Source: a virus. Taken from it: a stretch of 22,418 nucleotides of DNA. This document shows, in pieces, positions 1,582 through 22,418 of the stretch. The DNA is taken from the IMG/VR virus record IMGVR_UViG_3300023179_000552, positions 1-22,418 of that record; one strand, given 5' to 3'. A model generated the notes under the pieces. The model was not told the DNA's origin and made no database searches. It was given only the letters and a program-made list of their open reading frames with translations. Made by a program: the position numbers and the translations under genes. Every line of letters begins with the position of its first letter. Position 1 is the stretch's first letter.

Positions 1582-3300
1582 ATGTCAAACGTACAACAAT
1601 TATTAGAAAGCTCTGCTGGCTCTTGGAAGAGTTTGCAAAGCGACGCTGCTAAACTTGCTGGAAAATGGGCTAAAACTGGCTTATTGGAAGGTTTAGTTGA
1701 AGTGGACAAAAACAACATGTCCCTTTTATTAGAAAACCAAGCAAAACAATTGGTAACTGAATCAAACCAAATCTCTACTAACTCTTACTTCACTTCAGGT
1801 GGACAGGGTGAAAACTGGGCTGGTATTGCTTTACCTTTGGTTCGTAAAGTATTCGGAACCATCGTAGCTAAAGAATTCGTTTCAGTTCAACCAATGAACA
1901 TGCCTTCTGGTCTTGTGTTCTTCTTAGATTTCCAATACGGTAACACTAAGAACCCATTCCAAACTGGTGGTTCTTTGTATGGTACTCGTGACACTGCTTC
2001 TCAGTTCCCATTCTCAACTCCTAGTGCATCTGGTGGTTTATATGGTACTGGTCGTTTCACTTACTCTACTAACTTATTCTCAGCTTCTGCTCAGTCTATT
2101 GCTTCTGCTTCTTATGTTTCTTCAGCATCTTTCCAAGATGTAAACTTTGATCAGAACTTCTCAGCTTCAGTTGCTAACGGAACTATTAAAGAGATTATTT
2201 TCCCTTCAGCTAGTGTTTATATGCCTGCATTTGACCAAGAAGCTGTTCGTGGATTTATTTTAACTTCTGGTTCTATTACTGTTGCTAAGTGTTTTAACCA
2301 ATTCACTACTTACAACTACGCTACTGATACCATTAACTTCTACGTTTCTGCTTCAACAGCTGAAATTGGACAAACTACTATTCCTTTTGTTTCTTACACT
2401 AAGAATGGTTCACAAGATGGTATTAACACAGTATCGGGTAACAACGGTGGTACTGCAAACTTAAGTGGTTCAGGTCGTGGTGATTTCGAAGCTTCAGGAT
2501 CGTTCTCTATTCCTAACAGCGCTTCTCTTTCACAAATCGTTATCCCTGAGATCAACGTAAGAATGCAATCTCAAGCCATCACTGCTAAAACCAAGAAATT
2601 GAAAGCGGTATGGACTCCTGAATTTGCACAAGATTTAGCTGCTTACCAAAACATCGACGCTGAAGCTGAATTGACTAACATCATGAGCGAGTACATTTCA
2701 ATGGAAATTGATTTGGAAATCTTGGATATGTTGATCGAAGATGCTGCTGCTGCTACTGAGTACTGGTCAGCTGCTAACAACAACGTTTACAACGCTTCTA
2801 CTCAGTTGTTCTCAACTGGTGGTTCTGCTTTTTACAACACACAAGGTCAATGGTTCCAAACTTTAGGTACTAAAATCCAAAAAGTATCTAACAAGATTCA
2901 CCAGTTGACTTTACGTGGAGGTGCTAATTTCTTGGTTACTTCTCCTACAGTAGCAACTATCTTGGAATCAATCCCAGGATTCGCTTCTACTTCAAACGGT
3001 GAAGCTGATCAAATGGAATACGCTTTCGGTGTACAGAAAATCGGAACTGTAAACGGTCGTTACAAAGTTTACAAAAACCCTTACTTGACTGAAAACTTGA
3101 TCCTTATGGGTTACAGAGGTTCTCAGTTCTTGGAAACTGGTGCTGTATTCGCTCCTTACATTCCTTTAATCATGACTCCATTGGTGTACGATCCTGATAC
3201 CTTCACTCCACGTAAAGGTTTATTGACTCGTTACGCTAAGAAGATGTTACGTCCTGAATTCTACGGTAAGATTTACATCGATAGCTTAAACACTATCTAA
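1582..3300 (+). CDS. Major capsid protein, T4 gp23-like
   Basis: This 572-residue protein is the main subunit of the head shell. Several stretches match T4 gp23 as I recall it. There is an N-terminal delta region with LLLENQAKQL (gp23: IFENQEKDF), then VRKVFGTIVAKEFVSVQPMN near residues 87-105 (gp23: VRRAIPNLIAFDICGVQPMN), AKTKKLKAVW near 335, and FAQDLAAYQNIDAEAEL just after it. The end is YGKIYIDSLNTI. By analogy with gp23, which is cut after LTE at residue 65, the maturation protease may cut after Glu60 in LVTE|SNQ; this is inferred. The stretch between the VQPMN and AKTKK motifs (about residues 105-330) is rich in Ser and Ala and appears several tens of residues longer than in T4. The leader before the ATG is almost pure A/C with no Shine-Dalgarno sequence, yet the gene must be highly expressed. 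Confidence 0.93.
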   Translation: MSNVQQLLESSAGSWKSLQSDAAKLAGKWAKTGLLEGLVEVDKNNMSLLLENQAKQLVTESNQISTNSYFTSGGQGENWAGIALPLVRKVFGTIVAKEFVSVQPMNMPSGLVFFLDFQYGNTKNPFQTGGSLYGTRDTASQFPFSTPSASGGLYGTGRFTYSTNLFSASAQSIASASYVSSASFQDVNFDQNFSASVANGTIKEIIFPSASVYMPAFDQEAVRGFILTSGSITVAKCFNQFTTYNYATDTINFYVSASTAEIGQTTIPFVSYTKNGSQDGINTVSGNNGGTANLSGSGRGDFEASGSFSIPNSASLSQIVIPEINVRMQSQAITAKTKKLKAVWTPEFAQDLAAYQNIDAEAELTNIMSEYISMEIDLEILDMLIEDAAAATEYWSAANNNVYNASTQLFSTGGSAFYNTQGQWFQTLGTKIQKVSNKIHQLTLRGGANFLVTSPTVATILESIPGFASTSNGEADQMEYAFGVQKIGTVNGRYKVYKNPYLTENLILMGYRGSQFLETGAVFAPYIPLIMTPLVYDPDTFTPRKGLLTRYAKKMLRPEFYGKIYIDSLNTI

Positions 3301-3379: not shown

Positions 3380-4330
3380 ATGTATAGTAAATACAGTTAC
3401 ACTAAATTAAATTTTATGAAAGAGACTCCAAGTCAGTTACCAATTCAAAGTTTCGTTATGAACTTTCCATTCTCATTATCAACAGCAGACCCAAATAACA
3501 TTTGGATGCAAGAGTTAACAGATGAGGAATTAACAATTAACAAACCTAAGGCATACAAACAATTTATGGATTTGTATAATTTTGTTGCTGGTGGTGCTTT
3601 AGTTAATCTATTACCCTCAGAAGGTAATTTCCAAGACCAAGTTTATGTAGCTAATTTAGGTATTTATTTACCTCATATTAAAAACGAAAACCATATTATT
3701 TTATCTAATTTTACTTCTGATCCTCGTAAAGGTGAAGAATTAGTTGGAGAAAAATACTTTAATCAAATGGGTTATAAAACAGCTATTTCTCCATACAAAT
3801 GGGAAGGTGAGGCCGATTTAAAATACCTTTACGGAAACAAATATATTGGTGGTTATGGTATTCGCTCAAACATCAAAGCATATGAATGGATGGAAGAAAC
3901 ATACAATATGGACATTCTTAAAGTAGCTATGGTTGATGAATATTTGTATCACTTAGATTGTTCTATTTTTGCATTAAATCAAGACCAGACATTAGTTTGT
4001 ACTGAATTGTTTGATGAGGAAGAATTACAAATGATTGAAAAAGAAACAGAAATTATTGATATCCATGTTGATGATGCTTTGTGTGGATTAACAAATTCTG
4101 TAAGAATGGGTAACATGATTATGTGTGCCTCTAATATTTCTGAATTAAAAAAATCACATGAATATTATGAAGGTGAAAAACATAAAATTGAAACACTAGA
4201 AAAGATTTGTAGCGATGCTGGTATGGAACCCGCTATTTTCAATTTATCAGAATATATGAAATCAGGTGCTATGTTGTCTTGTATGATGATGCACTTAAAT
4301 CGAGTTGATCACAATAAAACCTTATTATAA
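3380..4330 (+). CDS. Amidinotransferase / dimethylarginine dimethylaminohydrolase-type (pentein) enzyme
   Basis: The protein (316 residues from ATG 3380, 304 from ATG 3416) looks like a guanidine-modifying enzyme of the pentein fold, a family that acts on arginine or substituted arginines through a catalytic cysteine. Numbered from 3380, the visible hallmarks are an acidic WEGEADLKYL (141-150), YGIRSN (159-164), a central YHLDCSIFAL with the likely catalytic His191 (190-199), and a C-terminal SGAMLSCMMMHLN where Cys301 is the probable nucleophile. The family is clear from this order, but the substrate is not; hydrolase and transferase are both possible. The start is uncertain: ATG 3380 lies inside a TATAATATG sequence that may be promoter, and ATG 3416 (MKETPSQLP) has a more ordinary A/T-rich leader. 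The stop overlaps the next ATG by one base, which indicates an operon with the decarboxylase. Confidence 0.75.
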   Translation: MYSKYSYTKLNFMKETPSQLPIQSFVMNFPFSLSTADPNNIWMQELTDEELTINKPKAYKQFMDLYNFVAGGALVNLLPSEGNFQDQVYVANLGIYLPHIKNENHIILSNFTSDPRKGEELVGEKYFNQMGYKTAISPYKWEGEADLKYLYGNKYIGGYGIRSNIKAYEWMEETYNMDILKVAMVDEYLYHLDCSIFALNQDQTLVCTELFDEEELQMIEKETEIIDIHVDDALCGLTNSVRMGNMIMCASNISELKKSHEYYEGEKHKIETLEKICSDAGMEPAIFNLSEYMKSGAMLSCMMMHLNRVDHNKTLL

Positions 4331-5061
4331 TGGCACAAACATTACAAGAGTGGTTAAGTACTGAAGTTAAACAACTTCAAAAGATGCCTGTAGGCGAATT
4401 ATCTAATGTATTTTTCTTTAGAGACCCAATTCGTCCTAATTACATTGATCATGAGCATTTTTACTCTCCAGCTGATGGAACTATTTTATACCAAAAGTTT
4501 ATTAAAGATCCTACTGAACCTATAGTTGAAATTAAGGGTATGAATTATACTCTTCAAGATGTTATGGGCGACGATGAATATAATAAACCTTCACTAGTTA
4601 TCGGTATATTTATGTCATTTTATGACGTTCACATTAATCGTATACCCTACGGAGGTCTGCTGTCATATAAACCACTAGACGCGATTCAATCGACAAACAA
4701 ACCAATGTTAGCGGTTGAAAAAGATATATTAAATAAAAAAATTAACCCCGCAAACATGGAGTATTTAAAGTATAACGAACGTATGTGGAATAAAATTTAT
4801 TCACCATCTTTAGATTATACTTATTACTTAATTCAAATTGCAGACGAGGATGTAAACGTAATTGCTCCATTTACTATGGATCAAAACGATGTTTTTGCTC
4901 AAAATGAAAGATTTTCTTTAATTAGATGGGGTTCACAAGTTGATTTAGTGTTACCGTTAGATGATAGATATGATTTCGAGTTATGTTTAGATGATGCTAT
5001 GCATGTTAATGCTGGCTTAGACCAACTTGTAAAAATTAACTTCAATGAATACACAACCTAA
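4330..5061 (+). CDS. Phosphatidylserine decarboxylase, short-form family
   Basis: This 243-residue protein resembles the short phosphatidylserine (or archaetidylserine) decarboxylases, which make phosphatidylethanolamine-type lipids with a self-generated pyruvoyl group. The motifs appear in family order: SPADG (46-50), KGMNYTLQDVMGDD (69-82), MSFYDVHINRIP (95-106), and NERFSLIRWGSQVDLVLP (192-209). The Asp-His-Ser set known for the family is present as Asp49, His101 and Ser202. Self-cleavage would fall between Gly201 and Ser202, leaving a 42-residue alpha chain that carries the pyruvoyl end. I see no clear membrane segment. The gene overlaps its upstream neighbour by 1 base and the PhoH-like gene by 17 bases, so all three are probably translated together. 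An active enzyme would change host membrane lipids; a degenerate homologue with another role cannot be excluded. Confidence 0.85.
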   Translation: MAQTLQEWLSTEVKQLQKMPVGELSNVFFFRDPIRPNYIDHEHFYSPADGTILYQKFIKDPTEPIVEIKGMNYTLQDVMGDDEYNKPSLVIGIFMSFYDVHINRIPYGGLLSYKPLDAIQSTNKPMLAVEKDILNKKINPANMEYLKYNERMWNKIYSPSLDYTYYLIQIADEDVNVIAPFTMDQNDVFAQNERFSLIRWGSQVDLVLPLDDRYDFELCLDDAMHVNAGLDQLVKINFNEYTT

Positions 5062-9043: not shown

Positions 9044-12000
9044 ATGGCGCAAGTAAGATTTTTAGATCAGGTACCGGTTGGTGTATATAATCCTAATGGA
9101 GGAAATGGTGGGGGTGGGACTATTGATATATATCAAAATGGAATATTAGTTAGTGCTAGTGTTCCCTTTATAAATTTTAGTGGTTCAGAAGTAATAACAG
9201 GATTTGGTGTTAGTGGAAGCAACACTGGTGTAACTGTTTATATTTCTGGTTCAGGAGGAGTAGGATTCCCATTTTCAGGTTCAGCCGTTATCACTGGATC
9301 TTTAGTTATTTCTGGGTCTTCTCAACCTCTTATAATACAAACTCTACCAGTTCAATCTGGTCCTTATGTTGTTACATATAACCCTGTTTCAGGTCTTTTT
9401 GGATATGTAAATTCTACTTCTGGTACAAGTGGTGTATCAGGTACAAATGGTACAGCAGGAGTTTCAGGAATAAGTAATACATCTGGTACAGGAGGTACTT
9501 CAGGTACAACAGGTACAAGTGGTACAGCGGGTGCTTCAGGAGCAGGAAATTCAAGTGCTTCTAGTGGTACTTCAGGAACTAGTGGTACAAATGGTACAAC
9601 AGGAGCAGCAGGTGCTTCAAATTCAAGTCAATCAAGTGGAACAAGTGGTTCATCTGGTACTTCGGGTACAGCAGGTGCTATAGGTTCTAGTAATTCAAGC
9701 CAATCAAGTGGAACAAGTGGTTCATCTGGTACTTCAGGTACAGCAGGTGCTGCTGGTGCTTCAAATAGTAGTGCTTCATCAGGAACTTCAGGTACTACTG
9801 GATCTAATGGTAGTACAGGCCTTTCAGGTTCCTCAGGTGCAAGTGGTTCTTCACAATCAAGTGGAACTTCAGGATCAACTGGTACTAATGGTACAGCAGG
9901 TGCTGTAGGTTCTTCGGCTTCAAGTGCTTCTAGTGGAACAAGTGGTACTAATGGTACATCAGGTACAGCAGGAGCTGCTGGTTTATCTAATAGCAGTGCT
10001 TCTTCTGGTACATCTGGTACAAATGGTACATCAGGTATAGCTGGAGTAGCAGGAGCAAGTGCTTTAAGTACTTCATCAGGTACTAGTGGTTCATCTGGTA
10101 CTTCGGGTACAGCAGGTGCAAATGGAGCAAATAGTACTTCAGGTATAAGCGGAACAAGTGGTTCTTCAGGATCTACAGGTACTGCGGGTGCTGCTGGTTT
10201 AAGTAGATCATCAGATTCATCTGGAACTAGTGGTAGTTCAGGTTCAACAGGTACTACAGGTACAAATGGTTTAGCAGGTGCTTCAAATAGTAGCGCTTCT
10301 TCCGGTACTTCTGGATCTTCAGGTTCAACAGGTACAGCAGGTGCTGCAGGAGCAAGTCAATCAAGTCAATCATCTGGAACATCTGGTACTACAGGTACTA
10401 GTGGTTCTAGTGGTATAGCAGGTGCAAGTGGTACAAGTGTAACTAGTGGTACTAGTGGTTCAAGTGGTTCTACAGGTTCAAGTGGTTCTACTGGTACAGC
10501 AGGTGCTGCAGGAGCAAGTGCGTCAAGTACATCTTCAGGAACAAGTGGTTCTTCAGGTTCAACAGGAACATCAGGAACACAAGGAGCAGCAGGACAAAGC
10601 CGTTTAAGTGATTCATCTGGAACAAGCGGTTCTTCAGGTTCATCTGGTACTACAGGTACTAATGGTGTTGCTGGTTCCTCAACTTCAAGTCAATCTTCAG
10701 GAACTTCTGGTTCTAGTGGTTCTACAGGAACTGCGGGTACTGCAGGAGCAGCAGGTGCTTCAAATTCAAGTCAATCATCAGGTACAAGTGGTACAGCAGG
10801 TACATCTGGATCTACAGGTACAAATGGTACTGCAGGTGCTGCGGGTGGTAGTACGTCAAGTGCTTCTAGTGGAACATCAGGATCTTCAGGATCAACAGGT
10901 ACTAATGGAACAGCTGGTGCTGCAGGTGCAAGTGTTTCAAGTGCATCAAGTGGAACTTCAGGTTCAAGTGGTTCTGCTGGTACTTCAGGTACAGCAGGTG
11001 CTGCAGGAACAAGTCAATCAAGTTCTTCATCTGGTACTTCAGGTTCATCTGGTAGTACTGGTTCAACTGGTACAGCAGGTGCTGCTGGTGCTTCACGTTT
11101 AAGTGATACTTCAGGTACTTCTGGTACTTCTGGATCTTCAGGATCAACTGGTACAAATGGTACTGCGGGGGCTGCAGGTGGTAGTACTTCAAGCGCATCA
11201 AGTGGAACTAGTGGATCTTCAGGTTCAACTGGTACAAATGGTACTGCTGGAATAGCAGGTAATAGCACTTCAAGTGCTTCTAGTGGTACAGCAGGTACAT
11301 CTGGTTCTACAGGTACTTCTGGTACTGCAGGAGCAGCTGGAGCAAGTAATTCAAGTCAATCTTCAGGAACTTCTGGTTCTAGTGGTTCATCAGGATCTAC
11401 AGGTTCAGCAGGTGCTGCTGGTTCTAGTAGACTAAGTGATTCATCAGGAACAAGTGGTTCTTCTGGTTCATCAGGATCAACGGGTACTAATGGTACCGCA
11501 GGTGCTGCTGGAGCTTCAACATCAAGTGCTTCTTCTGGAACAAGTGGTTCAAGTGGTTCTACAGGTACTTCTGGTACTGCAGGAGCAGCTGGAGCAAGTA
11601 ATTCAAGTCAATCAAGTGGTACATCTGGTTCATCAGGTAGTACTGGTACTGCTGGTACAGCAGGTAATAGTAATTCAAGTACATCAAGTGGAACCTCAGG
11701 TTCTTCAGGTTCTTCAGGTTCAGTAGGTGCTGCTGGTGCTAGTCAATCAAGTAATTCAAGTGGAACTAGTGGTAGTACAGGATCTAGTGGTTCATCAGGA
11801 CTAAATGGGTTTAACGGACTTTCTGGACAAAGTGGTTCATCAGGTTCAAATGGTTCATCAGGTGTTGATGGAACAAGTGGTGCAAGTAAGTCTTCAGGTA
11901 CAAGTGGTTCATCGGGTACAACAGGTACAGCAGGTGCTACAGGTTCATCTCAATCTTCCCAATCTTCAGGTACCTCAGGTACTTCAGGTTCTACAGGTAC

Positions 12001-15000
12001 AGCAGGTACAGCAGGATCTGGAAGTTTAAGTTCATCAAGTGGTACAAGTGGTTCATCAGGTAGTACAGGTTCAGCAGGTGCTGCTGGTACTTCAAATTTA
12101 AGTGCATCTTCAGGTACAAGTGGTTCTTCAGGTAGTGCAGGTACAAATGGTACCGCGGGTGCTGCAGGTGGTAGTACTTCAAGTGCATCTTCAGGTACTA
12201 GTGGCTCATCTGGTTCAACAGGTACTTCAGGTACTCAAGGTGCCGCTGGTCAAAGTAGACTAAGTGATTCATCAGGTACAAGCGGCTCTTCAGGTTCATC
12301 TGGTACAACTGGTACAAATGGTTTAGCTGGTGGAAGTAATTCAAGCGCATCTTCAGGTACTTCAGGTACAAGTGGTTCTACAGGAACTTCAGGTACTGCT
12401 GGAGCTGCTGGTGGAAGTGCTTTAAGTCAATCATCTGGTACTAGTGGTACATCAGGTTCTACAGGAACTGCGGGTACTGCAGGAGCAGCAGGTGCTTCAA
12501 ATTCAAGTCAATCAAGTGGAACAAGTGGTTCATCTGGTAGTACTGGTTCAACTGGTACAGCAGGTGCTGCTGGTGCTTCACGTTTAAGTGATACAAGCGG
12601 TACTTCAGGAACTTCAGGTACATCTGGTAGTACTGGTACTAATGGTACTGCTGGAGCTTCAGGTGCCTCAACATCAAGTGCTTCATCTGGAACTTCAGGA
12701 TCTTCAGGATCTACAGGTACTAATGGAACAGCAGGTGCAGCTGGTATTTCAAATTCAAGTAATAGCTCAGGTACTTCAGGTTCAAGTGGTTCTACAGGTT
12801 CTGCAGGAGCTGCTGGTTCTTCAGCATCAAGTGCTTCTTCAGGAACAAGTGGTAGTACAGGATCTAGTGGTTCAGCAGGTATATCAGGTGCTTCAGGTGC
12901 TAGTGGTTCTTCTCAATCTAGTGGATCTTCAGGTTCATCAGGTACAAATGGTACTTCTGGAGCTGCAGGTGCTGCAGGTTCAAGCGCTTTAAGTACCTCA
13001 AGTGGTACATCAGGTTCATCAGGTACTAATGGTACAGCTGGTGCTGCAGGGGCAAGCCAATTAAGCCAATCCTCAGGCACAAGTGGTTCTTCAGGTAGTA
13101 CAGGAACAAATGGTACCGCTGGTAATTCTGGTACTTCAAATTCTAGTGCGTCTTCAGGAACAAGTGGTTCATCGGGTAGTAATGGTTCTGCAGGAGCTGC
13201 TGGTTCTTCGGCATCAAGTGCTTCATCTGGAACATCAGGTTCTTCAGGTTCAACAGGTACTGCGGGTGCTGCAGGTTCATCTCAATTAAGCCAATCTTCA
13301 GGTACAAGTGGTTCAAGCGGTAGTACAGGAACTTCTGGTACTGCTGGATCTGCTGGTCAAAGTCGTTTAAGTGATAGTTCAGGAACATCAGGTTCAAGTG
13401 GTACATCAGGTTCAACAGGAACTAATGGTACTGCTGGAGCTGCTGGTTCTTCAAATACAAGTAATACATCTGGTACTAGTGGTTCTGCTGGTACAAACGG
13501 TACAGCAGGTGCTGCTGGAGCTTCTACTTCAAGTGCTTCTTCTGGTACAAGTGGTACTTCTGGTTCTACTGGTACAAATGGTACAGCAGGTAATGCTGGA
13601 ACTAGTAATTTAAGTGCATCAAGTGGTACTTCTGGAACTAGTGGTTCTACAGGTTCTGCAGGAGCTGCTGGTTCTTCAGCATCAAGTGCTTCTTCAGGAA
13701 CATCAGGTTCTTCAGGTAGTACAGGTTCAGCAGGTAATGCTGGAACTAGTAATTCAAGTGCATCAAGTGGTACTTCTGGGTCTTCTGGTACAAGTGGTAC
13801 AGCAGGTGCTGTTGGTGGAAGTGCTTCAAGTGCATCAAGTGGTACTTCTGGATCTTCAGGATCTACAGGAACATCAGGAACACAAGGAGCAGCAGGACAA
13901 AGCCGTTTAAGTGATAGTTCAGGAACTTCAGGTTCTTCTGGAACTAGTGGTTCAACAGGTACTAATGGTACTGCAGGTGCTTCTGGAACTAGTAATAGTA
14001 GTGCATCTTCAGGTACAAGTGGTTCTAGTGGTTCAACAGGTACTAATGGTACTGCAGGTGCTTCTGGAACTAGTAATAGTAGTGCATCTTCAGGTACAAG
14101 TGGTTCTAGTGGTTCTACAGGAACAAATGGTACAGCAGGTAATGCGGGTTCATCTCAATCAAGTGCTTCTAGTGGTACAGCAGGTACAAGTGGTTCTTCA
14201 GGAACTGCAGGTACAGCAGGTGCTGCTGGTGCTTCAAATTCAAGTCAATCGTCTGGTACAAGCGGAACAAGTGGTTCTACAGGAACTACTGGTACTGCTG
14301 GTAACGCAGGTGCTTCAAATAATAGTACCTCTTCAGGTACTAGTGGTTCTAGTGGTTCTGCTGGTACTGCAGGTACCGCCGGTGCTTCTGGAGCTTCAAA
14401 TTCTAGTGCATCAAGTGGAACAAGTGGTTCATCTGGTTCTACTGGTTCACAAGGTGCTGCTGGTTCTTCTCGTTTAAGTGATACAAGTGGTACTTCAGGT
14501 TCATCAGGATCTACAGGTACTACAGGTACAAATGGTTTAGCTGGAGGAAGTGCTTCAAGTGCTTCAAGTGGTACAGCTGGAACTTCAGGTTCTTCAGGAA
14601 CAAACGGAACAGCAGGTGCTGTAGGTTCTTCAGCTTCAAGTGCATCAAGTGGTACAGCAGGTACATCAGGTTCTTCAGGAACAAACGGAACAGCAGGTGC
14701 TGCTGGAACAGGTGCTTCAAGTAATACATCAGGAACAAGTGGTAGTACTGGTACTAATGGTACTGCGGGTAATGCAGGTTCATCACAATCAAGTGCTTCA
14801 TCTGGAACTAGTGGTTCTAGTGGTTCTACAGGAACAAGTGGTACAGCAGGTAATACTGGTTCATCACAATCAAGCGCTTCCTCTGGTACAAGTGGTTCAT
14901 CAGGTAGTACAGGTTCAGCAGGTGCTGCAGGAGCTAGTGCTTTAAGTAATACATCAGGAACTTCAGGTTCATCTGGTTCAAATGGTAACGCAGGTGTTGC

Positions 15001-18000
15001 TGGTTTAAGCAACGTAAGTGCAACTTCAGGAACTTCAGGTTCAAATGGTACATCAGGTAATGCTGGAGCAGCAGGTTCAAGCGCATCAAGTGCATCTTCA
15101 GGTACCTCAGGTTCTTCAGGAACAAATGGTACAGCAGGAGCAGCAGGTGCTTCAAATAGTAGCTCTTCATCTGGTACTTCAGGTTCAAGTGGTTCAGCTG
15201 GAACAGCTGGTACTGCAGGAGCCGCAGGTGCTTCAAATTCTAGCGCTTCTAGTGGTACTAGTGGTTCATCAGGATCTACAGGTTCACAAGGTGCTGCAGG
15301 TTTAAGCAGATTAAGTGATAGTTCAGGTACCTCAGGTTCAAGTGGTTCATCAGGTACAACTGGTACAAACGGTTTAGCTGGTGCTTCTTCATCAAGTGCT
15401 TCTAGTGGAACATCAGGTTCTAGTGGTTCAACAGGTACTAATGGTACAGCTGGAGCCGCTGGTACTTCAAATAGTAGCGCTTCTAGCGGTACAGCAGGTA
15501 CTTCAGGTTCAACAGGAACTTCAGGTACGGCAGGTGCTTCAGGTGCTTCAAATAGTAGTGCTTCTTCTGGTACAAGTGGTTCCTCAGGTAGCGCAGGTTC
15601 AGCAGGTAATGCTGGTTCAAGTAATTCAAGTACAAGTTCAGGTACTTCAGGATCTAGTGGTTCAGCTGGAACAGCTGGTACTGCTGGAGCTGCAGGTACA
15701 AGTCAATCAAGTGCATCAAGTGGAACTTCAGGTACATCAGGTAGCAATGGTACAGCAGGTGCTGCTGGTACTTCTAATATAAGTGCTTCATCAGGTACTT
15801 CTGGATCTTCAGGTTCAACAGGTACAGCAGGTGCTGCAGGAGCAAGTCAATCAAGCCAATCTTCAGGAACAAGTGGTTCTTCAGGTTCAACAGGTACTTC
15901 AGGTACTACTGGAGCTGCAGGATTAAGTCGTTCAAGTGACAGTTCAGGTACTTCAGGTTCAAGTGGTTCATCTGGTACTACAGGTACAAATGGTTTAGCC
16001 GGTGGAAGTAATTCAAGCGCTTCTTCAGGAACTTCAGGTTCATCAGGATCTGCTGGTACAGCAGGTACAGCAGGAGCTGCAGGTTCAAGTCAATTTAGTG
16101 CTTCTTCTGGTACAAGTGGTTCATCAGGATCTACAGGTTCAGCAGGTGCTGCTGGAACTTCTAATACAAGTAATTCAAGTGGAACAAGTGGTTCATCAGG
16201 TACTAATGGTACTGCTGGTGTATCTGGTTCTTCATCATCAAGTGCTAGTTCTGGTACTGCTGGTTCTTCAGGAACAAGCGGTTCTACAGGAACAAACGGA
16301 ACAGCAGGTGTTGCTGGTTCTTCAGCTTCAAGTGCATCTTCAGGTACTGCAGGTACAAGTGGTTCTACAGGTACAGCAGGTACTTCAGGAAATGCTAATT
16401 CAAGTGCTTCTAGTGGTACATCAGGTACTTCAGGTTCAACAGGTACATCAGGTAATGCTGGAGGAAGTAATACAAGTGCTTCATCAGGAACTTCAGGTTC
16501 ATCAGGATCTGCGGGTACAGCAGGTACAGCGGGTGCTGCTGGAGCAAGTCAATCAAGTGCTTCAAGTGGAACAAGTGGTTCAAGTGGTTCTACAGGAACA
16601 AGTGGTACACAAGGTGCTGCTGGTCAAAGCCGTTTAAGTGACAGCTCAGGAACATCAGGTTCAAGCGGAACAAGCGGTTCTACAGGTACTAATGGTACTG
16701 CAGGTGCTGCTGGTACCTCAAATTCAAGTGCTAGTTCTGGTACTGCCGGTTCTTCAGGAACAAGTGGTTCAGCAGGTACTAATGGTACAGCAGGTAATGC
16801 AGGTTCAAGCACATCAAGTGCTTCTAGTGGTACATCAGGTACATCAGGTTCTTCAGGAACTGCAGGTACAGCAGGTGCTGCTGGAGCTTCAAATTCAAGT
16901 AACTCATCAGGTACAAGTGGAACTTCAGGTTCAACAGGTACTATAGGAACAGCAGGTGCTGCTGGTACAAGTAATTCAAGTACAACCTCAGGAACATCAG
17001 GTTCATCAGGTTCATCGGGAACTGCTGGTACAGCAGGAGCTGCAGGTTCATCTCAATCTTCTCAATCTTCTGGTACTTCAGGTACTAGTGGTTCATCAGG
17101 ATCTACAGGTTCAGCAGGTGCTGCTGGTTCAAGTAGATTATCTGATTCATCAGGTACTAGTGGTAGTTCAGGTTCAACAGGTACTACAGGTACAAATGGT
17201 TTAGCAGGAGCAAGTGCATCAAGTGCTTCATCAGGTACTTCAGGTTCATCAGGTTCAACTGGAACTTCAGGTACAGCAGGTGCTTCAGGTGCTTCTAATT
17301 CATCAGCTTCAAGTGGTACTTCAGGAACTTCAGGTTCAACAGGTACAGCAGGTACTGCAGGAGCAGCAGGTGCTTCAAATAGTAGTGCTTCTTCAGGAAC
17401 TTCAGGTTCATCTGGATCTGCAGGTACTATAGGAACAGCTGGCGCTTCAGGAGCAAGTAATTCAAGTGCAAGTTCAGGAACATCAGGATCTTCAGGTTCT
17501 GCAGGTACTGCTGGCACAGCAGGTGCTGCTGGGGTTTCAAACTCTAGTGCTTCATCTGGAACTTCAGGTTCATCAGGATCTACAGGTACCCAAGGTGCTG
17601 CCGGTTCTTCTCGTTTAAGTGATAGTTCAGGAACTTCAGGTACAAGTGGTTCTACTGGTACAACTGGTACAAATGGTTTAGCAGGTGCTTCAAATTCAAG
17701 TGCTTCAAGTGGTACAGCAGGTACCTCAGGTTCAACCGGAACTAATGGTACAACTGGAGCATCAGGTGCTTCAAATAATAGTGCATCTTCTGGAACAAGT
17801 GGTTCTTCAGGATCTACAGGTACTACGGGTACAGCTGGAGCAGCAGGTGCAAGTAATTCATCAAATTCTAGTGGAACAAGTGGTTCTACAGGATCTAATG
17901 GTACGGCAGGTAACGCGGGTTCAAGTAACGCATCAAATTCAAGTGGTACTAGTGGTACTAGTGGTTCAGGAGGTTCAGCAGGTATTGGAGGTGCTTCAGG

Positions 18001-20791
18001 TGCTTCCGCTGCTAGTGCTTCATCAGGAACTTCAGGTACATCAGGCACAAATGGTACATCAGGTAATAATGGTGCTTCAAATTCAAGTGCATCATCAGGT
18101 ACAAGCGGTACATCAGGTACAACTGGTACAAATGGTTTAGCTGGTGCAAGTGCATCATCAAATACAAGTGGAACTTCAGGTTCTTCAGGAACTAATGGTA
18201 ATGCTGGTGTAGCAGGAGCTAGTGCTTCTAGTGCTTCAAGTGGAACTAGTGGTTCTAGTGGTACAACAGGTACTCAAGGAGCAGCTGGAGGAAGTAGACT
18301 AAGTGACACGTCAGGTACTTCAGGTACAAGTGGATCAAGTGGTTCAACAGGAACAAATGGTACAGCAGGTATAGGAGCTCTAAGTAACACAGCTGGTACA
18401 GCCGGAACTAGTGGTACAATAGGTACTACAGGATTGGGAGGTAACAGCGGAGCAAGTAACACATCAGGAACAAGTGGTACAACAGGTTCAAATGGTAACG
18501 CTGGAGCCGCTGGTTCAAGTGCATCAAGTGCTTCTTCAGGAACTAGTGGAACATCAGGTTCAAATGGAACAAACGGTAACGCGGGTGCCGCAGGTTTAAG
18601 TAATATAAGTGCTACTTCAGGAACCACAGGTTCAAATGGTACAAATGGTTTACCAGGAGTGTCAGGAATAAGCGCAGCTAGCGCGACATCAGGTTCAAGT
18701 GGTTCTAATGGTTCAAACGGTAATGCTGGTATAGCAGGCCAATCAGCTTTAAGTGCTACTTCTGGCACTAGTGGTTCTTCAGGTACAACAGGTACAACAG
18801 GGGCTGCTGGAGTTGCTGGTTCAAGTGCATCAAGTGCTTCAAGTGGAACAAGTGGTACTAACGGTACTTCAGGTGGACCTGGTATAGCAGGTTTAAGCGC
18901 AGCTAGTGCAACTTCTGGTTCATCAGGATCAAATGGTACTAACGGTGTAGCAGGTGCTGCTGGTTCAAGTGCTTTAAGTGCAACTTCAGGAACTACAGGT
19001 TCAAGTGGTACAAGTGGTAACGCAGGAGCAGCGGGTGCAAGTGCATCTAGCGCATCTTCAGGAACATCTGGTTCAAGTGGTTCATCAGGTACAAGTGGTT
19101 TAGCTGGTGCTTCTGGTTTAAGTGCTGCTAGTGCATCAAGTGGTTCAAGTGGTACAAACGGTACTAATGGAAACGCTGGAGCAGCAGGTGCAAGTGCATC
19201 AAGTGCATCTTCAGGTACTACAGGTACTAATGGTACAAGTGGTAATGCTGGAGCAGCAGGTGCGAGCGCATTAAGTGCTTCTAGTGGTACTTCAGGAACA
19301 TCAGGATCTACAGGTACTAATGGAAATGCGGGTGCCGCAGGTTCAAGTAATATAAGTGCTACTTCAGGTACTACAGGTTCAAATGGTACTAACGGCTTAC
19401 CTGGAGTATCAGGGGTAAGTGCAGCTAGTGCGACTTCAGGTTCAAGTGGTTCTAATGGTACAAATGGTAACGCAGGTATAGCAGGTCAATCTGCTCTAAG
19501 TGCTACTTCAGGAACATCTGGATCAACAGGTACAACAGGTACAACAGGTAACGCAGGTGCTGCTGGTTCAAGTGCTTTAAGTGCTACTTCAGGAACTACA
19601 GGTTCAAGTGGTACAAATGGTTTACCTGGAACAATAGGAATAAGTGCAGCTAGTGCGACTTCAGGTACTACAGGTTCAAATGGTACTTCTGGAAACCCAG
19701 GTATAGCTGGAAATAGTGCTTCAAGTGCTACATCAGGTTCAGGAGGTACTAATGGTACTAACGGAGCGGCTGGTGCTGGTGGATTAAGTGCAGGAAGTAA
19801 TACATCTGGTACAAGTGGTACTAATGGTACAGCAGGTAACGCTGGAGCTGCTGCTTCTTCTAACACAAGTGGAACTTCTGGTTCATCAGGAACAACAGGC
19901 GCAGCTGGTGCCGCTGGTTCAAGTAATTCAAGTGCTACTTCAGGAACCACAGGTTCAAATGGTACTTCTGGAGGACCTGGTATAGCAGGTTTAAGTGCTG
20001 CAAGTAATACATCAGGTACTTCAGGTTCAAGTGGTACTGGAGGTACATCAGGTATAGGTGGATTAGCAGGTGCTTCTTCTACAAGTAATACAAGTGGAAC
20101 AAGTGGTTCAACAGGTACAACAGGTACTCAAGGCGCGGCTGGTCAAAGTCGTTTAAGTGACACTTCAGGTACTTCAGGTTCAAGTGGTACTACAGGTACT
20201 ACTGGTACTAATGGTTTAAGTGTTGGTGGTTCAACTTCAGGAACTTCAGGTTCAGCAGGTTCATCAGGTGTATCTATTAACGGTACTTCAGGTATTAGTG
20301 GTGGTGTATTTAACAACCAACCAAATTATATAGTATATACAGTAAGTGGAACAACAGTACAAAGTACAAATTTCTTATACGCTGATATTACAAATAGTAG
20401 ATTTGGTGTTGGTACTACTTCTCCATCATATCCATTACATGTAGCAACAAATGTGAGTGGTATTTCAATATATGCAGCTTATGATATTCAAGCATTTTCA
20501 GATGAAAGAGTAAAAGCAAATGTTAAAGTAATTGAAAATTCTCTTAATAAAATCCAACAAATTGATGGTGTTACATTTATAAGAACTGATAATCCATCAA
20601 ACCCAACACAAAGACATGCTGGTGTAATTGCTCAACAAATAGAAAAAGTACTACCAGAAGTAGTAAGTACAGATAAAGAAACAGGAATTAAATCAGTAGC
20701 ATATGGTAATATAAGTGGATTGTTGATTGAAGCTATTAAAGAATTGAATAAAAAAGTAGAAAATTTACAAAATCAATTAAATAGTAAATAA
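9044..20791 (+). CDS. Giant Gly-X-Y repeat tail-fibre-like protein with C-terminal S74 chaperone domain
   Basis: This 3,915-residue protein is probably a virion fibre that reaches the host. Residues 1-126 form a beta-rich head (MAQVRFLDQVPVGVY, then TIDIYQNGILVSA), a style seen in phage fibre bases. Residues 127-3752 are Gly-X-Y triplets of Gly, Ser, Thr, Ala and Asn with almost no charge, no aromatics except rare Phe, and only six prolines, all in the last third. Every 8-10 triplets the Gly is replaced in two successive triplets (xSSxSS). The neck includes RFGVGTTSPSYPLHV (about 3786-3800), a common motif before fibre tips. The C-terminus is a peptidase S74/endosialidase-type intramolecular chaperone. 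It has SDERVK with Ser3819 and Lys3824 (the known Ser-to-Lys+5 spacing of the self-cleaving dyad), HAGVIAQQ at 3858-3865, and a terminal coiled coil. This family trimerises fibres and then cuts itself off, so a homotrimer is likely. The stop overlaps the next ATG (TAATG). Confidence 0.9.
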   Translation: MAQVRFLDQVPVGVYNPNGGNGGGGTIDIYQNGILVSASVPFINFSGSEVITGFGVSGSNTGVTVYISGSGGVGFPFSGSAVITGSLVISGSSQPLIIQTLPVQSGPYVVTYNPVSGLFGYVNSTSGTSGVSGTNGTAGVSGISNTSGTGGTSGTTGTSGTAGASGAGNSSASSGTSGTSGTNGTTGAAGASNSSQSSGTSGSSGTSGTAGAIGSSNSSQSSGTSGSSGTSGTAGAAGASNSSASSGTSGTTGSNGSTGLSGSSGASGSSQSSGTSGSTGTNGTAGAVGSSASSASSGTSGTNGTSGTAGAAGLSNSSASSGTSGTNGTSGIAGVAGASALSTSSGTSGSSGTSGTAGANGANSTSGISGTSGSSGSTGTAGAAGLSRSSDSSGTSGSSGSTGTTGTNGLAGASNSSASSGTSGSSGSTGTAGAAGASQSSQSSGTSGTTGTSGSSGIAGASGTSVTSGTSGSSGSTGSSGSTGTAGAAGASASSTSSGTSGSSGSTGTSGTQGAAGQSRLSDSSGTSGSSGSSGTTGTNGVAGSSTSSQSSGTSGSSGSTGTAGTAGAAGASNSSQSSGTSGTAGTSGSTGTNGTAGAAGGSTSSASSGTSGSSGSTGTNGTAGAAGASVSSASSGTSGSSGSAGTSGTAGAAGTSQSSSSSGTSGSSGSTGSTGTAGAAGASRLSDTSGTSGTSGSSGSTGTNGTAGAAGGSTSSASSGTSGSSGSTGTNGTAGIAGNSTSSASSGTAGTSGSTGTSGTAGAAGASNSSQSSGTSGSSGSSGSTGSAGAAGSSRLSDSSGTSGSSGSSGSTGTNGTAGAAGASTSSASSGTSGSSGSTGTSGTAGAAGASNSSQSSGTSGSSGSTGTAGTAGNSNSSTSSGTSGSSGSSGSVGAAGASQSSNSSGTSGSTGSSGSSGLNGFNGLSGQSGSSGSNGSSGVDGTSGASKSSGTSGSSGTTGTAGATGSSQSSQSSGTSGTSGSTGTAGTAGSGSLSSSSGTSGSSGSTGSAGAAGTSNLSASSGTSGSSGSAGTNGTAGAAGGSTSSASSGTSGSSGSTGTSGTQGAAGQSRLSDSSGTSGSSGSSGTTGTNGLAGGSNSSASSGTSGTSGSTGTSGTAGAAGGSALSQSSGTSGTSGSTGTAGTAGAAGASNSSQSSGTSGSSGSTGSTGTAGAAGASRLSDTSGTSGTSGTSGSTGTNGTAGASGASTSSASSGTSGSSGSTGTNGTAGAAGISNSSNSSGTSGSSGSTGSAGAAGSSASSASSGTSGSTGSSGSAGISGASGASGSSQSSGSSGSSGTNGTSGAAGAAGSSALSTSSGTSGSSGTNGTAGAAGASQLSQSSGTSGSSGSTGTNGTAGNSGTSNSSASSGTSGSSGSNGSAGAAGSSASSASSGTSGSSGSTGTAGAAGSSQLSQSSGTSGSSGSTGTSGTAGSAGQSRLSDSSGTSGSSGTSGSTGTNGTAGAAGSSNTSNTSGTSGSAGTNGTAGAAGASTSSASSGTSGTSGSTGTNGTAGNAGTSNLSASSGTSGTSGSTGSAGAAGSSASSASSGTSGSSGSTGSAGNAGTSNSSASSGTSGSSGTSGTAGAVGGSASSASSGTSGSSGSTGTSGTQGAAGQSRLSDSSGTSGSSGTSGSTGTNGTAGASGTSNSSASSGTSGSSGSTGTNGTAGASGTSNSSASSGTSGSSGSTGTNGTAGNAGSSQSSASSGTAGTSGSSGTAGTAGAAGASNSSQSSGTSGTSGSTGTTGTAGNAGASNNSTSSGTSGSSGSAGTAGTAGASGASNSSASSGTSGSSGSTGSQGAAGSSRLSDTSGTSGSSGSTGTTGTNGLAGGSASSASSGTAGTSGSSGTNGTAGAVGSSASSASSGTAGTSGSSGTNGTAGAAGTGASSNTSGTSGSTGTNGTAGNAGSSQSSASSGTSGSSGSTGTSGTAGNTGSSQSSASSGTSGSSGSTGSAGAAGASALSNTSGTSGSSGSNGNAGVAGLSNVSATSGTSGSNGTSGNAGAAGSSASSASSGTSGSSGTNGTAGAAGASNSSSSSGTSGSSGSAGTAGTAGAAGASNSSASSGTSGSSGSTGSQGAAGLSRLSDSSGTSGSSGSSGTTGTNGLAGASSSSASSGTSGSSGSTGTNGTAGAAGTSNSSASSGTAGTSGSTGTSGTAGASGASNSSASSGTSGSSGSAGSAGNAGSSNSSTSSGTSGSSGSAGTAGTAGAAGTSQSSASSGTSGTSGSNGTAGAAGTSNISASSGTSGSSGSTGTAGAAGASQSSQSSGTSGSSGSTGTSGTTGAAGLSRSSDSSGTSGSSGSSGTTGTNGLAGGSNSSASSGTSGSSGSAGTAGTAGAAGSSQFSASSGTSGSSGSTGSAGAAGTSNTSNSSGTSGSSGTNGTAGVSGSSSSSASSGTAGSSGTSGSTGTNGTAGVAGSSASSASSGTAGTSGSTGTAGTSGNANSSASSGTSGTSGSTGTSGNAGGSNTSASSGTSGSSGSAGTAGTAGAAGASQSSASSGTSGSSGSTGTSGTQGAAGQSRLSDSSGTSGSSGTSGSTGTNGTAGAAGTSNSSASSGTAGSSGTSGSAGTNGTAGNAGSSTSSASSGTSGTSGSSGTAGTAGAAGASNSSNSSGTSGTSGSTGTIGTAGAAGTSNSSTTSGTSGSSGSSGTAGTAGAAGSSQSSQSSGTSGTSGSSGSTGSAGAAGSSRLSDSSGTSGSSGSTGTTGTNGLAGASASSASSGTSGSSGSTGTSGTAGASGASNSSASSGTSGTSGSTGTAGTAGAAGASNSSASSGTSGSSGSAGTIGTAGASGASNSSASSGTSGSSGSAGTAGTAGAAGVSNSSASSGTSGSSGSTGTQGAAGSSRLSDSSGTSGTSGSTGTTGTNGLAGASNSSASSGTAGTSGSTGTNGTTGASGASNNSASSGTSGSSGSTGTTGTAGAAGASNSSNSSGTSGSTGSNGTAGNAGSSNASNSSGTSGTSGSGGSAGIGGASGASAASASSGTSGTSGTNGTSGNNGASNSSASSGTSGTSGTTGTNGLAGASASSNTSGTSGSSGTNGNAGVAGASASSASSGTSGSSGTTGTQGAAGGSRLSDTSGTSGTSGSSGSTGTNGTAGIGALSNTAGTAGTSGTIGTTGLGGNSGASNTSGTSGTTGSNGNAGAAGSSASSASSGTSGTSGSNGTNGNAGAAGLSNISATSGTTGSNGTNGLPGVSGISAASATSGSSGSNGSNGNAGIAGQSALSATSGTSGSSGTTGTTGAAGVAGSSASSASSGTSGTNGTSGGPGIAGLSAASATSGSSGSNGTNGVAGAAGSSALSATSGTTGSSGTSGNAGAAGASASSASSGTSGSSGSSGTSGLAGASGLSAASASSGSSGTNGTNGNAGAAGASASSASSGTTGTNGTSGNAGAAGASALSASSGTSGTSGSTGTNGNAGAAGSSNISATSGTTGSNGTNGLPGVSGVSAASATSGSSGSNGTNGNAGIAGQSALSATSGTSGSTGTTGTTGNAGAAGSSALSATSGTTGSSGTNGLPGTIGISAASATSGTTGSNGTSGNPGIAGNSASSATSGSGGTNGTNGAAGAGGLSAGSNTSGTSGTNGTAGNAGAAASSNTSGTSGSSGTTGAAGAAGSSNSSATSGTTGSNGTSGGPGIAGLSAASNTSGTSGSSGTGGTSGIGGLAGASSTSNTSGTSGSTGTTGTQGAAGQSRLSDTSGTSGSSGTTGTTGTNGLSVGGSTSGTSGSAGSSGVSINGTSGISGGVFNNQPNYIVYTVSGTTVQSTNFLYADITNSRFGVGTTSPSYPLHVATNVSGISIYAAYDIQAFSDERVKANVKVIENSLNKIQQIDGVTFIRTDNPSNPTQRHAGVIAQQIEKVLPEVVSTDKETGIKSVAYGNISGLLIEAIKELNKKVENLQNQLNSK
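13944..14115 (+). repeat. Exact 81-bp tandem duplication inside the fibre gene
   Basis: Bases 13944-14034 and 14025-14115 are identical over 91 positions at an offset of 81. The first difference is at 14035 (A) against 14116 (T). This is one whole 27-residue unit duplicated without a single synonymous change, unlike most neighbouring units. Confidence 0.93.
18595..18810 (+). repeat. Copy 1 of a long diverged block repeat in the distal fibre region
   Basis: The encoded run NISATSGTTGSNGTNGLPG, with its ~45 following residues (to QSALSATSGTSG), recurs almost unchanged in protein at about 19342-19555. The DNA differs at many third positions (for example ACCACA against ACTACA, and TTACCAGGAGTG against TTACCTGGAGTA). 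It is an old multi-unit duplication. Confidence 0.8.
19342..19555 (+). repeat. Copy 2 of the long diverged block repeat in the distal fibre region
   Basis: Partner of the block at about 18595-18810. The protein is nearly the same, including LPGVSG and AGIAGQSALSATSG, with changes such as Ile to Val after VSG and Ser to Thr in the SNG segment. Third positions are much more diverged than first and second positions. Confidence 0.8.
20498..20788 (+). other. Peptidase S74-type intramolecular chaperone, the part predicted to be released by self-cleavage
   Basis: This part encodes the last 97 residues of the giant protein, starting at Ser3819 of SDERVK. The Ser/Lys pair spaced by five matches the self-cleavage dyad described for endosialidase-type C-terminal chaperones. 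HAGVIAQQ and the final heptad region (KELNKKVENLQNQL) are also typical. Cleavage next to Ser3819 is inferred from the family. If it occurs, the mature virion fibre would lack this segment. Confidence 0.85.
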
Positions 20792-21471
20792 TGGCGGTTC
20801 CAAGTACAAATGTAAAATTTAGTGATATATGGAGTGAGGCTAATGGTACCTATTCTACAGGTATCCTTAGCCTAAACACTATGAGTTTTTTTTCATATTT
20901 TGCTGGTCCTAATGGTTCAAATTCACAAGCAGCAAATAATTGGGGTCAAGGTGAAGGATCAGGAGCTAATAGAATTTATGGAACATCAGCTAAAACAACT
21001 CTTATTCAAGTAGGTGATTTTGATGGATTAACATATTTTTATAATAATTCAACTTATCAAGTAACTTTAAATGTAACAAATAATAAAACAAATCCACCAC
21101 CATTCCCACCACCTCCTGTTGATAATGCGGTTAACGTAAATGTTGAATTATGGGATTCATCTTTTTCATACCAATATTTAAGTGGAGGAGGTATGGCTAA
21201 TGCTCCTGGTACTTATGGTCCCTCTTCTGTTAGTCAAACAAATGATCCTATTATTTATAGAGGTTATTGGAAAGTAACAATTTCAGGAGCTAACCCCTCA
21301 TTTGCTGGAGGTACCGCAAATTTATCTATAAATGGTACTAATTTTTTTACCGGACAAGCAGTAGCAGCTGGCCCAGGAGGTACTACATTCACCTCAACAA
21401 CATACGGAACAGCGGATGTAGCAGCATATTTAGGACTTACTGGTTTGTATTTTGATGTAACTGTAAATTAA
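20791..21471 (+). CDS. Virion-type protein, possibly a fibre-associated or tip protein
   Basis: I do not recognise this 226-residue protein. Its start (MAVPSTNVKFSDIWSEANGT, then LSLNTMSFFSYFAG) resembles the 'P-x-x-x-(I/V)-x-(L/F)-S-D-I-x-x-E' opening seen in many small tail or adhesin proteins of T4-like phages. A proline run, PPPFPPPP (102-109), separates an N-terminal half rich in Gly, Asn and Ser from a C-terminal beta-rich half (GYWKVTISGANP, then LTGLYFDVTVN). It has no cysteine, no signal peptide and no membrane segment. Its ATG overlaps the fibre stop codon, so its translation is coupled to the fibre. A protein that binds the fibre, or an assembly factor for it, is plausible but not shown. 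Confidence 0.6.
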   Translation: MAVPSTNVKFSDIWSEANGTYSTGILSLNTMSFFSYFAGPNGSNSQAANNWGQGEGSGANRIYGTSAKTTLIQVGDFDGLTYFYNNSTYQVTLNVTNNKTNPPPFPPPPVDNAVNVNVELWDSSFSYQYLSGGGMANAPGTYGPSSVSQTNDPIIYRGYWKVTISGANPSFAGGTANLSINGTNFFTGQAVAAGPGGTTFTSTTYGTADVAAYLGLTGLYFDVTVN

Positions 21472-21743: not shown

Positions 21744-22418
21744 ATGAAAAAATTGTTATTTATTGCTCCACATTTATCGACAGGTGGGCTGCCTCAATAC
21801 CTAACCAAAAAAATAGAGTTATTAAAAGATGAATTTGATGTTTATCTTGTGAATGGGTAGATTGCACTGGTGGTGTATTAGTTGTGACTAAAAATAAAAT
21901 AACGCAACTCGTTGCTCCTGAAAAGTTCTACACATTAGACGATAATAAACAGCGATTAATTAATATTATTAATAATATCCAACCTGATATTATTCATTTA
22001 GAAGAAATACCAGAATTTTTTATGGATGAAAATATTGCTCGACAAATTTATACTCAAGATAGAAACTATAAAATTGTAGAAACATCACATGATTCATCTT
22101 ATAACACAGAAAATAAAAAATTCTACCCAGATAAATTTATGTTTGTATCTCAATGGCAAATTAATCAATATAAAGATTTAGATATTCCTAAAGTATTAGT
22201 TGAATATCCTATTGAATATATTGAACGTCCTAATAGAGAGGAAGCACTAAAAGCATTAGGGTTAGATCCTAATAAAAAACATATTTTACATGTTGGTTTA
22301 TACACATCAAGAAAAAACCAATCAGAATTTTTTAAATATGCTAAAGCATTTCCTGAATATGAGTTTCATAGTTTAGGAAATAGAGCAGATAATTTTAGAT
22401 GGTATTGGGAACCATTAG
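21744..22418 (+). pseudogene. GT4-type glycosyltransferase interrupted by a one-base frameshift, partial
   Basis: ATG 21744 opens MKKLLFIAPHLSTGGLPQYL, the N-terminal nucleotide-sugar transferase pattern of GT-B fold, family 4 enzymes, and stops at TAG 21858-21860. The homologous sequence continues at once in the -1 frame from about 21851 (EWVDCTGGVLVVTKNKI) and stays open to the window edge. It includes IIHLEEIPEFF, VETSHDSSYN, KFMFVSQWQINQY, LHVGLYTSRKNQSEFF and HSLGNRADNFRWYWEPL, all typical of GT4 enzymes. The natural reading is VYLV-EW with one base missing near CTTGTGAATGG (21846-21856). Both halves are well preserved, so this is a recent mutation, a sequencing error or, less likely, a recoding site. 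The enzyme would transfer a sugar to a protein or surface glycan. The C-terminus lies beyond the window. Confidence 0.85.

Follow-up and report, generated by a model that had tools for sequence, protein, structure and literature searches.

A giant, nearly proline-free Gly-X-Y tail fibre of a T4-like phage and the association of such arrays with TibC-type glycosyltransferases

The viral DNA analysed here (the window; 22,418 nucleotides, positions 1 to 22,418 of IMG/VR record IMGVR_UViG_3300023179_000552) carries a giant tail fibre gene whose product consists mostly of a Gly-X-Y array with almost no proline. Comparisons across viral and bacterial contigs support an association of such arrays with glycosyltransferases of the TibC type. 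We consider it probable that the gene encodes a very long collagen-like tail fibre that is O-glycosylated, with sugars taking the place of proline, and we infer both the glycosylation and the triple helix. An initial annotation of the window had raised the idea of a distinct class of fibre; that idea now stands in a sense absent from it, namely that the arrays go with TibC-type enzymes. Each component is already known by itself: collagen-like fibres in phages, enzymes of the TibC type, and collagen-like proteins that carry glycans. A survey of open-licence papers by titles and openings of abstracts (outside subscription journals and preprints) found neither proline-free Gly-X-Y phage fibres nor phage TibC homologues, nor any pairing, phage or bacterial, of a proline-free array and a TibC-branch enzyme.

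The fibre gene and its Gly-X-Y array

That the 3,915-residue open reading frame (ORF) encodes a phage tail fibre is well supported by sequence comparison. The gene has a late structural setting, with the gp23 capsid gene upstream in the window and a tail sheath gene downstream in the relative L009. The protein matches PHROG tail-fibre families, its C-terminal region resembles the long tail fibre distal subunit S16 gp37 (6F45_A, E 9.4e-10), and the S74 domain lies at its end (residues 3819-3874, covering 1-57 of the 58 positions of PF13884, E 9.3e-14). The initial annotation of a single phage fibre gene ending in an S74 chaperone was borne out by these features. The N-terminal domain is conserved, with a mean column identity of 72% in an alignment of 23 sequences. 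Pfam, PHROG, and PDB searches with this domain, including a PDB search with the domain profile, gave no match, and tblastn of the domain against the phages collection found nothing; tblastn of the repeat stretch against the same collection also found nothing, which has little meaning since low-complexity masking was on. An AlphaFold2 model of the domain was uninformative (pLDDT 39.8). The domains are directly observed, and the N-terminal one would probably anchor the protein to the virion, while the S74 chaperone, at the far end of the very long Gly-X-Y shaft, would probably trimerise the chains.

Glycine was initially described as occupying every third residue for about 1,208 triplets. One register does hold: 935 of the 962 Gly residues share it from residue 127 to residue 3744, and 27 further Gly residues are off register. 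Gly fills the first slot in only 935 of the 1,206 array triplets (78%). Over the 1,209 triplets of the initial annotation, the first slot is Gly in 935 (77%), Ala in 113, Asn in 66, Gln in 31, Thr in 17, Arg and Asp in 16 each, Ser in 9, Val in 3, Ile in 2, and Lys in 1. The non-Gly triplets of the 1,206-triplet array form 132 double and 7 single breaks, after each of which the next Gly is back in phase; N-S-S A-S-S, A-S-S A-S-S, and R-L-S D-S-S are the commonest double breaks. The Gly runs between breaks are mostly 7 (66 runs), 6 (59), or 8 (12) triplets long. Accordingly divided, the array has 140 units, 66 of 27 amino acids (aa), 59 of 24 aa, and 10 of 30 aa, and the 27-aa units follow the pattern GTS GSS GST GTx GTA GAA GAS NSS ASS. 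Across the 66 units of 27 aa, Ser is the last residue of the first break triplet in 66 and of the second in 65, and both unrelated sets of Ser codons are used for it. The two-residue Ile-Asn insertion reported at 20276 was confirmed, and the register shifts there.

Ser and Thr make up 49% of the array and occupy 1,739 of the 2,412 X and Y slots, and hydrophobic residues are few. Proline is found in none of the 1,206 X slots and in 6 of the 1,206 Y slots (in LPG, GPG, and NPG contexts), with none in the array ahead of position 18,653, in agreement with the initial estimate of about 18.65 kb. The near absence of proline also holds in the family: among 50 non-redundant arrays measured, a set that includes the window array and four arrays from three S74-fibre loci, 37 have proline in neither X nor Y. 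Charged residues are paired. All 16 Arg residues of the array have Asp at +3, the 16 Arg and 16 of the 17 Asp occupy Gly slots, and the only charges beyond the 16 Arg-Asp pairs are D942 and K949. The fibre passes the PF01391 gathering score, with matches along the array. By the imino-acid criterion, a collagen repeat has these residues frequently in X and/or Y, which is not the case in the window array, and the Gly periodicity leaves the question undecided; we therefore say that the array works like a collagen-like rod and not that it is a collagen. The rise of a triple helix is 0.286 nm per residue, and a full triple helix of the array would measure approximately 1.03 micrometres, which exceeds the hundreds of nanometres first estimated.

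The initial annotation had named an assembly artefact as a finding that would overturn it. An origin of the length in misassembly or repeat expansion is extremely improbable in our assessment, even though frame-shifted array copies do exist in some contigs (L062 versus L061). No exact repeat within the array is as long as 100 bp, the longest having at least 90 bp, so that 150-bp reads, if these were used, could resolve the array. In 66 aligned 27-aa units, the proportions of synonymous and nonsynonymous differences (pS and pN) are 0.50 and 0.28, and 34 adjacent unit pairs are barely more alike than all pairs (identity 0.68 versus 0.66). Since half of the synonymous sites differ and adjacent units are hardly closer, the array has not recently expanded, and its units are old and diverged. 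Complete fibres with the same N-terminal domain have 5,170, 4,661, 3,937, 3,889, 3,484, 2,918, 2,756, 2,732, 2,568, 2,269, and 2,034 aa; shorter complete frames include frame-shifted copies as well as fibres that lack long arrays. The longest of these fibres, of 5,170 aa (L175), has 100% identical matches in two other contigs of the same relative, L047 (5,630 bp) and L010 (2,653 bp); the three contigs come from three IMG datasets, which are possibly not independent samples. Apparent frameshifts split the array frames in some contigs (L061 versus L062; L045, L109, and L142), and array lengths taken from single metagenome contigs can therefore be too short.

The conformation of the shaft was considered against two readings without an extended triple helix. 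In a polyglycine II (PGII) lattice, each 24-30-residue unit would be a PGII strand and the breaks would be turns in a compact packing like that of the S16 gp38 tip or of snow flea antifreeze protein. The regular Gly runs, mostly of 6-8 triplets, and the short fixed breaks would suit such a lattice, as would the glycine-rich motifs linked by short loops of S16 gp38 (PMC6851490, in the part of the paper available). The strand-turn arrangement leaves unexplained the relatives at the same locus that reach 1,037-1,053 triplets without any break. An AlphaFold2 model of a 243-aa repeat stretch (monomer, mean pLDDT 34.8) was uninformative; its first half contains short strands at intervals of 27 residues, and its confidence is too low for these to count in favour of the lattice. 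We regard the PGII lattice as quite improbable. The other reading is a disordered mucin-like spacer, heavily glycosylated and extended like a bottle brush, with no triple helix. It agrees with the Ser and Thr content, the scarcity of hydrophobic residues, the low pLDDT, and the association with TibC described below. A disordered brush would have no need of a register held over 1,206 triplets across breaks, nor of the 100% Gly in some relatives, and we judge this reading doubtful.

Further lines carry no weight. The repeat matched collagens and 8ZXL ('spindlefibril', GAPGSQGAPGLQ repeat) in a PDB sequence search, owing to a common Gly periodicity and not to kinship. The lack of nonsynonymous change in Gly slots is circular, the units having been defined by Gly. 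Selection for an aperiodic order of units is not supported: with the irregular order of 24- and 27-aa units, the breaks of the window overlap by at most 72% in shifted registers, and shuffled orders give equal values (0.71-0.72).

Co-occurrence of arrays with TibC-type enzymes

The window runs off in a GT4-type glycosyltransferase gene that is 94% identical to its L009 homologue over 178 aa. The DNA agrees with L009 in 621 of 678 alignment columns, and the frame is broken near 21.85 kb relative to L009. The Pfam match of the gene in the window is weak (E 0.034), and the full-length homologue matches PF00534 with E 2.6e-11. In the closest relative, the L009/L175 contig, identity to the window is 86-94% for the first three genes past the fibre. 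Two small ORFs come first there, then a 906-aa protein whose N-terminal part is of the GT4 type and whose C-terminal part is weakly GT25-like. An FkbM methyltransferase, another GT4-type enzyme, a GT9 protein, and an NAD-dependent epimerase follow, and after these a 225-aa ORF, an 83-aa ORF, and the tail sheath.

By sequence, the GT9 protein of the cassette in this relative is of the TibC/Aah type, a predicted protein O-heptosyltransferase. The L009 protein aligns with TibC (PDB 4RAP) with E 5.8e-86 and all four Cys residues aligned. The three cassette sequences scanned against TIGR04414 exceed its equivalog cut-off of 200 bits (L009, 317 bits, E 1.2e-94; L238, 305 bits; L234, 257 bits). C351, C354, C368, C380, G115, and D116 are invariant across 13 aligned TibC-type sequences; we take the conserved Cys residues to be the iron-finger cysteines and the GD motif to be the active site of the enzyme. 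Ten of the aligned TibC-type enzymes share 35-58% identity with the L009 enzyme, and gene fusions occur, such as a 1,226-aa protein of Microcystis phage Mel-JY01. According to the available part of PMC3835316, autotransporters receive heptose from Aah and TibC, in the case of Aah on the Ser/Thr residues of AIDA-I; the enzyme genes share operons with those of the substrates, Aah recognises a structural motif and not a sequence, and TibA is less stable when unglycosylated.

Co-occurrence was examined in both directions. In the forward direction, TibC was found in 17 of 50 records, all 17 with PF01391 matches, and in none of the 15 records without PF01391 (Fisher p 0.0007, with related records counted as independent and kinship ignored). 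The PF01391-free records include G007, G048, G049, and G021, in which the neighbour gene upstream of the fibre is present, as well as the cultured Flavobacterium phage immuto, which has the neighbouring genes and neither a PF01391 match nor TibC. Six further records without PF01391 likewise have no TibC. Among seven near-copies or sister records, TibC is present in five and absent from L062 and L099. An IUPAC pattern for Ser/Thr Gly-X-Y repeats, which itself demands six proline-free triplets, gave at least 120 matches in viral contigs; 45 of the 78 new pattern loci listed have arrays of at least 100 triplets, and 32 of these 45 are proline-free. TibC was found in 28 of the 60 array-pattern contigs, defined as those of at least 20 kb among the 78 listed loci. 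The first 50 of these records were picked with some TibC positives already visible, and the ten left-out records, added afterwards, have TibC in 3.

In the reverse direction, the best 80 of at least 593 TibC relatives in viral contigs were taken from a profile search, a non-random sample since these are the top scorers for a query from this clade. An array counted when it was Ser/Thr-rich, at least 25 triplets long, and no more than 2% proline. Such arrays are present in 36 of the 80 loci, in 35 of the 40 with at least 5 kb available upstream, and in 20 of the 22 with at least 9 kb. Arrays of any composition of at least 25 triplets are present in 38 of the 80 loci, 35 of them upstream on the same strand with ends 3.9-9.7 kb before TibC and three on the opposite strand. 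In the control set of 28 S74-fibre loci, any such array occurs in 3 and a Ser/Thr-rich proline-poor array in none. With regard to an autotransporter substrate beside TibC, the viral loci with sufficient upstream sequence have an array in the same 35 of 40, and no family search for autotransporters was made.

Among 50,697 deposited phage records, a search detected TibC homologues in four (Mel-JY01, LR756501, LR756503, and LR756504), three of which have or share proline-poor arrays; long arrays are common to LR756501 and LR756503. In Mel-JY01 (L302, PP395634.1), a proline-poor 149-triplet Gly-X-Y array lies at 835-1282 on the plus strand within an open frame of 1,016 aa; the coding sequence annotated at this place in the record is on the opposite strand. 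LR756501.1 (L300, L303) is a 735-kb uncultured phage that carries a homologue of the 906-aa glycosyltransferase near 583-586 kb.

The bacterial loci are the best 80 of a longer list of TibC matches. Arrays of at least 25 triplets are present in 6 of these, versus 38 of the 80 viral loci. In a midpoint-rooted tree of 51 chosen sequences, a 100/100 branch separates 26 phage and 10 bacterial sequences from 15 bacterial ones, and phage and bacterial sequences are intermixed on the phage-containing side. With a lower threshold of 12 triplets for Ser/Thr Gly-X-Y arrays, the 17 closest bacterial loci have an array in 12 and the other 63 in 3 (p 4e-8, for a split set post hoc once the data were visible); the 15 loci across the tree branch have none. 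Ten of the twelve bacterial arrays lie 31-1,388 bp from TibC, the exceptions being L384 and L390. On visual inspection, a phage origin is possible for L384, L390, and L411. L385, L386, L388, L389, L391, L393-L396, and L398 encode small (Gly-Ser/Thr-Ser/Thr)n proteins within 1.4 kb of a TibC homologue. The bacterial array proteins are mostly small with a start that resembles a signal peptide or lipobox by eye, and some have acidic tails.

We lean slightly towards the view that this branch of TibC has switched its substrate from autotransporters to proline-free Gly-Ser/Thr collagen-like arrays and that the branch is widespread, both in environmental phages with very long glycosylated tail fibres and in bacterial pairs with small exported proteins. 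Such a switch would imply a collagen-like material that is independent of proline and stabilised by sugar.

Proposed glycosylation in place of proline

For the O-glycosylated fibre, we propose that a TibC/Aah-like enzyme, encoded a few kb downstream, would attach a sugar to Ser/Thr of the shaft and that accessory glycosyltransferases would extend or modify it. The X and Y slots point outward in a collagen helix; sugars on the Ser/Thr that fill them could therefore supply the stability of proline. Dense O-glycosylation would in this way provide the stiffness and solubility given by proline in other collagen-like proteins. More speculatively, the in-phase breaks every 24-30 residues and the Arg-Asp pairs might help the chains find register, a role for which the sole test, the shuffling of unit order, gave no sign.

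Known systems share parts of this arrangement. EPclA and EPclB of E. coli O157 prophages (PMC3368898, in part; PHROG 'collagen like minor tail') both have a Gly-X-Y shaft between N-terminal phage and C-terminal trimerisation or chaperone domains. The whole recombinant unglycosylated EPclA chain has 47 kDa (same source, in part), whereas the window array alone has 3,618 residues. Unlike both proteins, the window fibre has almost no proline and periodic in-phase breaks, and its relatives have an adjoining protein glycosyltransferase cassette. In the pairs TibA-TibC and AIDA-I-Aah, an enzyme of the same family is likewise encoded near a large repetitive Ser/Thr-rich surface protein; the substrate there is an autotransporter, whereas the candidate substrate here is a Gly-X-Y array, mostly phage-borne, and the enzymes are separated from 15 bacterial TibC homologues by the fully supported branch. 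BclA-type repeats carry proline in X, and the enzymes that act on them belong to other families. BclA-type Bacillus spore proteins and mimivirus collagens also have collagen-like repeats, to whose stability glycosylation is believed to contribute (PMC8968730, in part), but they are not phage fibres. Proline occupies 19-31% of X in bacterial collagen-like proteins according to the same partial source. S16 gp38, a Gly-rich adhesin of a T4-like phage, has 10 short motifs in a 73-residue domain, compared with the 1,206 triplets of the window.

An alternative is an ordinary collagen-like tail fibre: the shaft would be an unmodified, self-folding triple helix, and the glycosyltransferases would act on host lipopolysaccharide or capsule and block other phages. 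The PF01391 matches along the array accord with it, and recombinant EPclA forms a trimeric triple helix without glycosylation (PMC3368898, in part). Hydration around polar residues, Thr and Gln among them, can make bacterial triple helices more stable (PMC8968730, in part), and the glycosyltransferases beside the tail fibres of pelagimyophages were interpreted as modifiers of the host O-chain (PMC7029224, in part), which also speaks against our proposal. However, the stabilisers named in the available parts of PMC13138384 and PMC8968730 are imino acids and ionic or polar contacts, and the window array has next to no proline and few charges. The enzyme, moreover, comes from a family that glycosylates proteins, and TibC is also found with an array in small bacterial pairs. 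On balance, we find the unmodified fibre unlikely.

Several other observations weigh against the O-glycosylated fibre. No glycan has been seen, and glycosylation rests on inference. We know of no stable proline-free triple helix of such length, and the breaks place Asn, Gln, Arg, and Asp in the Gly slots of a collagen helix. No TibC gene lies within the window, which ends in the first cassette gene with its frame broken, and the cassette beyond that gene is known from relatives and not from the window phage. TibC is missing from 18 of the 35 PF01391-positive records of the 50-record set and from 32 of the 60 array-pattern contigs. Nine of the TibC-free positives are cut in the fibre or within about 2 kb of it (G009, G046, G047, G017, G018, G019, G051, G052, and G026), and G025 ends inside a glycosyltransferase; contig ends do not explain others such as G057 (Gln-rich arrays, 244,850 bp) and G020 (268,739 bp). 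In LR756501, several proline-poor arrays, the long ones among them, are located near 103-114 kb, far from TibC at about 580 kb, which has only a 24-triplet array about 5 kb away (near 586 kb). In LR756504, the 40 kb surrounding TibC showed no array.

If the fibre is glycosylated as proposed, very long collagen-like rods could be built without proline or hydroxyproline by means of a dedicated enzyme. This would explain the presence of a protein-type glycosyltransferase near the fibre genes of many environmental phages, for which host surface modification is one published reading, and a sugar coat on an adhesion fibre could affect the encounter between virion and host.

Variation among relatives and neighbouring genes

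Break-free arrays occur in L061 (1,053 triplets) and L104 (941 triplets), and in 12 interrupted arrays, that of the window included, a spacing of 8 or 9 triplets is the commonest. The C-termini differ, with S74 in the window, L175, L176, and L134, a phrog_17490 end in L177 and L137, and other ends elsewhere. L041 has an identical N-terminal domain (126 of 126 residues) with an array of another type, which indicates that shafts are exchanged or rebuilt fast. L098, L099, and L100 have, around 11836, an additional frame, separate from the first, whose Gly-X-Y array is acidic and contains proline; where prolines were counted (L098 and L100), they are only in Y, and a short ORF nearby starts with MANVRFLDQVP, as in the fibre family.

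Table 1 Features of the window and the evidence for them.
Feature	Position	Strand	Evidence or remark
T4-type major capsid protein gp23	1582..3300	+	PF07068, E 1.5e-75; places the phage
Conserved upstream neighbour gene, 313 aa	8069..9010	+	54% identity to its counterpart in the cultured Flavobacterium phage immuto
Giant collagen-like tail fibre gene, 3,915 aa	9044..20791	+	ORF; PF01391 whole-protein E 2.5e-257; PF13884
N-terminal domain, 126 aa, probable anchor to virion	9044..9421	+	In 56 of 80 neighbour-gene loci (best 80 of 199 relatives of the 313-aa gene in viral contigs)
Gly-X-Y array, 1,206 triplets, mostly 24/27/30-aa units, in-phase breaks	9422..20275	+	Residues 127 to 3744
16 R-[LS]-S-D modules, 108-618 aa between successive ones	10205..20161	+	Arg and Asp both in Gly slots of double breaks
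Ile-Asn insertion shifting register at array end	20276..20281	+	Sequence
C-terminal region with S74 intramolecular chaperone (20498-20665) at its end	20279..20788	+	PF13884; 6F45_A
226-aa ORF, no assigned function	20791..21471	+	First base is last base of fibre stop codon
Start of GT4-type glycosyltransferase gene, runs off window	21744..22418	+	Homologue of 906-aa L009 protein

By its capsid protein, the phage is T4-like; gp23 is 54% identical to that of Flavobacterium phage immuto and 48% identical to that of Mel-JY01. A host among the Bacteroidota is a guess. The 226-aa ORF has no PHROG or Pfam match. It has homologues in L009/L175, L010, L065, L066, L068, L069, L176, L097/L130/L182, L011, and L012, and sits after the fibre in several relatives. 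An acidic repeat-rich protein encoded ahead of gp23 (360-1550) had no family match in the PHROG and Pfam scans and, by position and composition, is perhaps a prohead core scaffold. The capsid gene is followed by genes for a DDAH-like protein (3380-4330; PF19420, E 6e-7) and a phosphatidylserine decarboxylase (4330-5061; PF02666, E 3e-24), which are unusual cargo inside a phage structural region.

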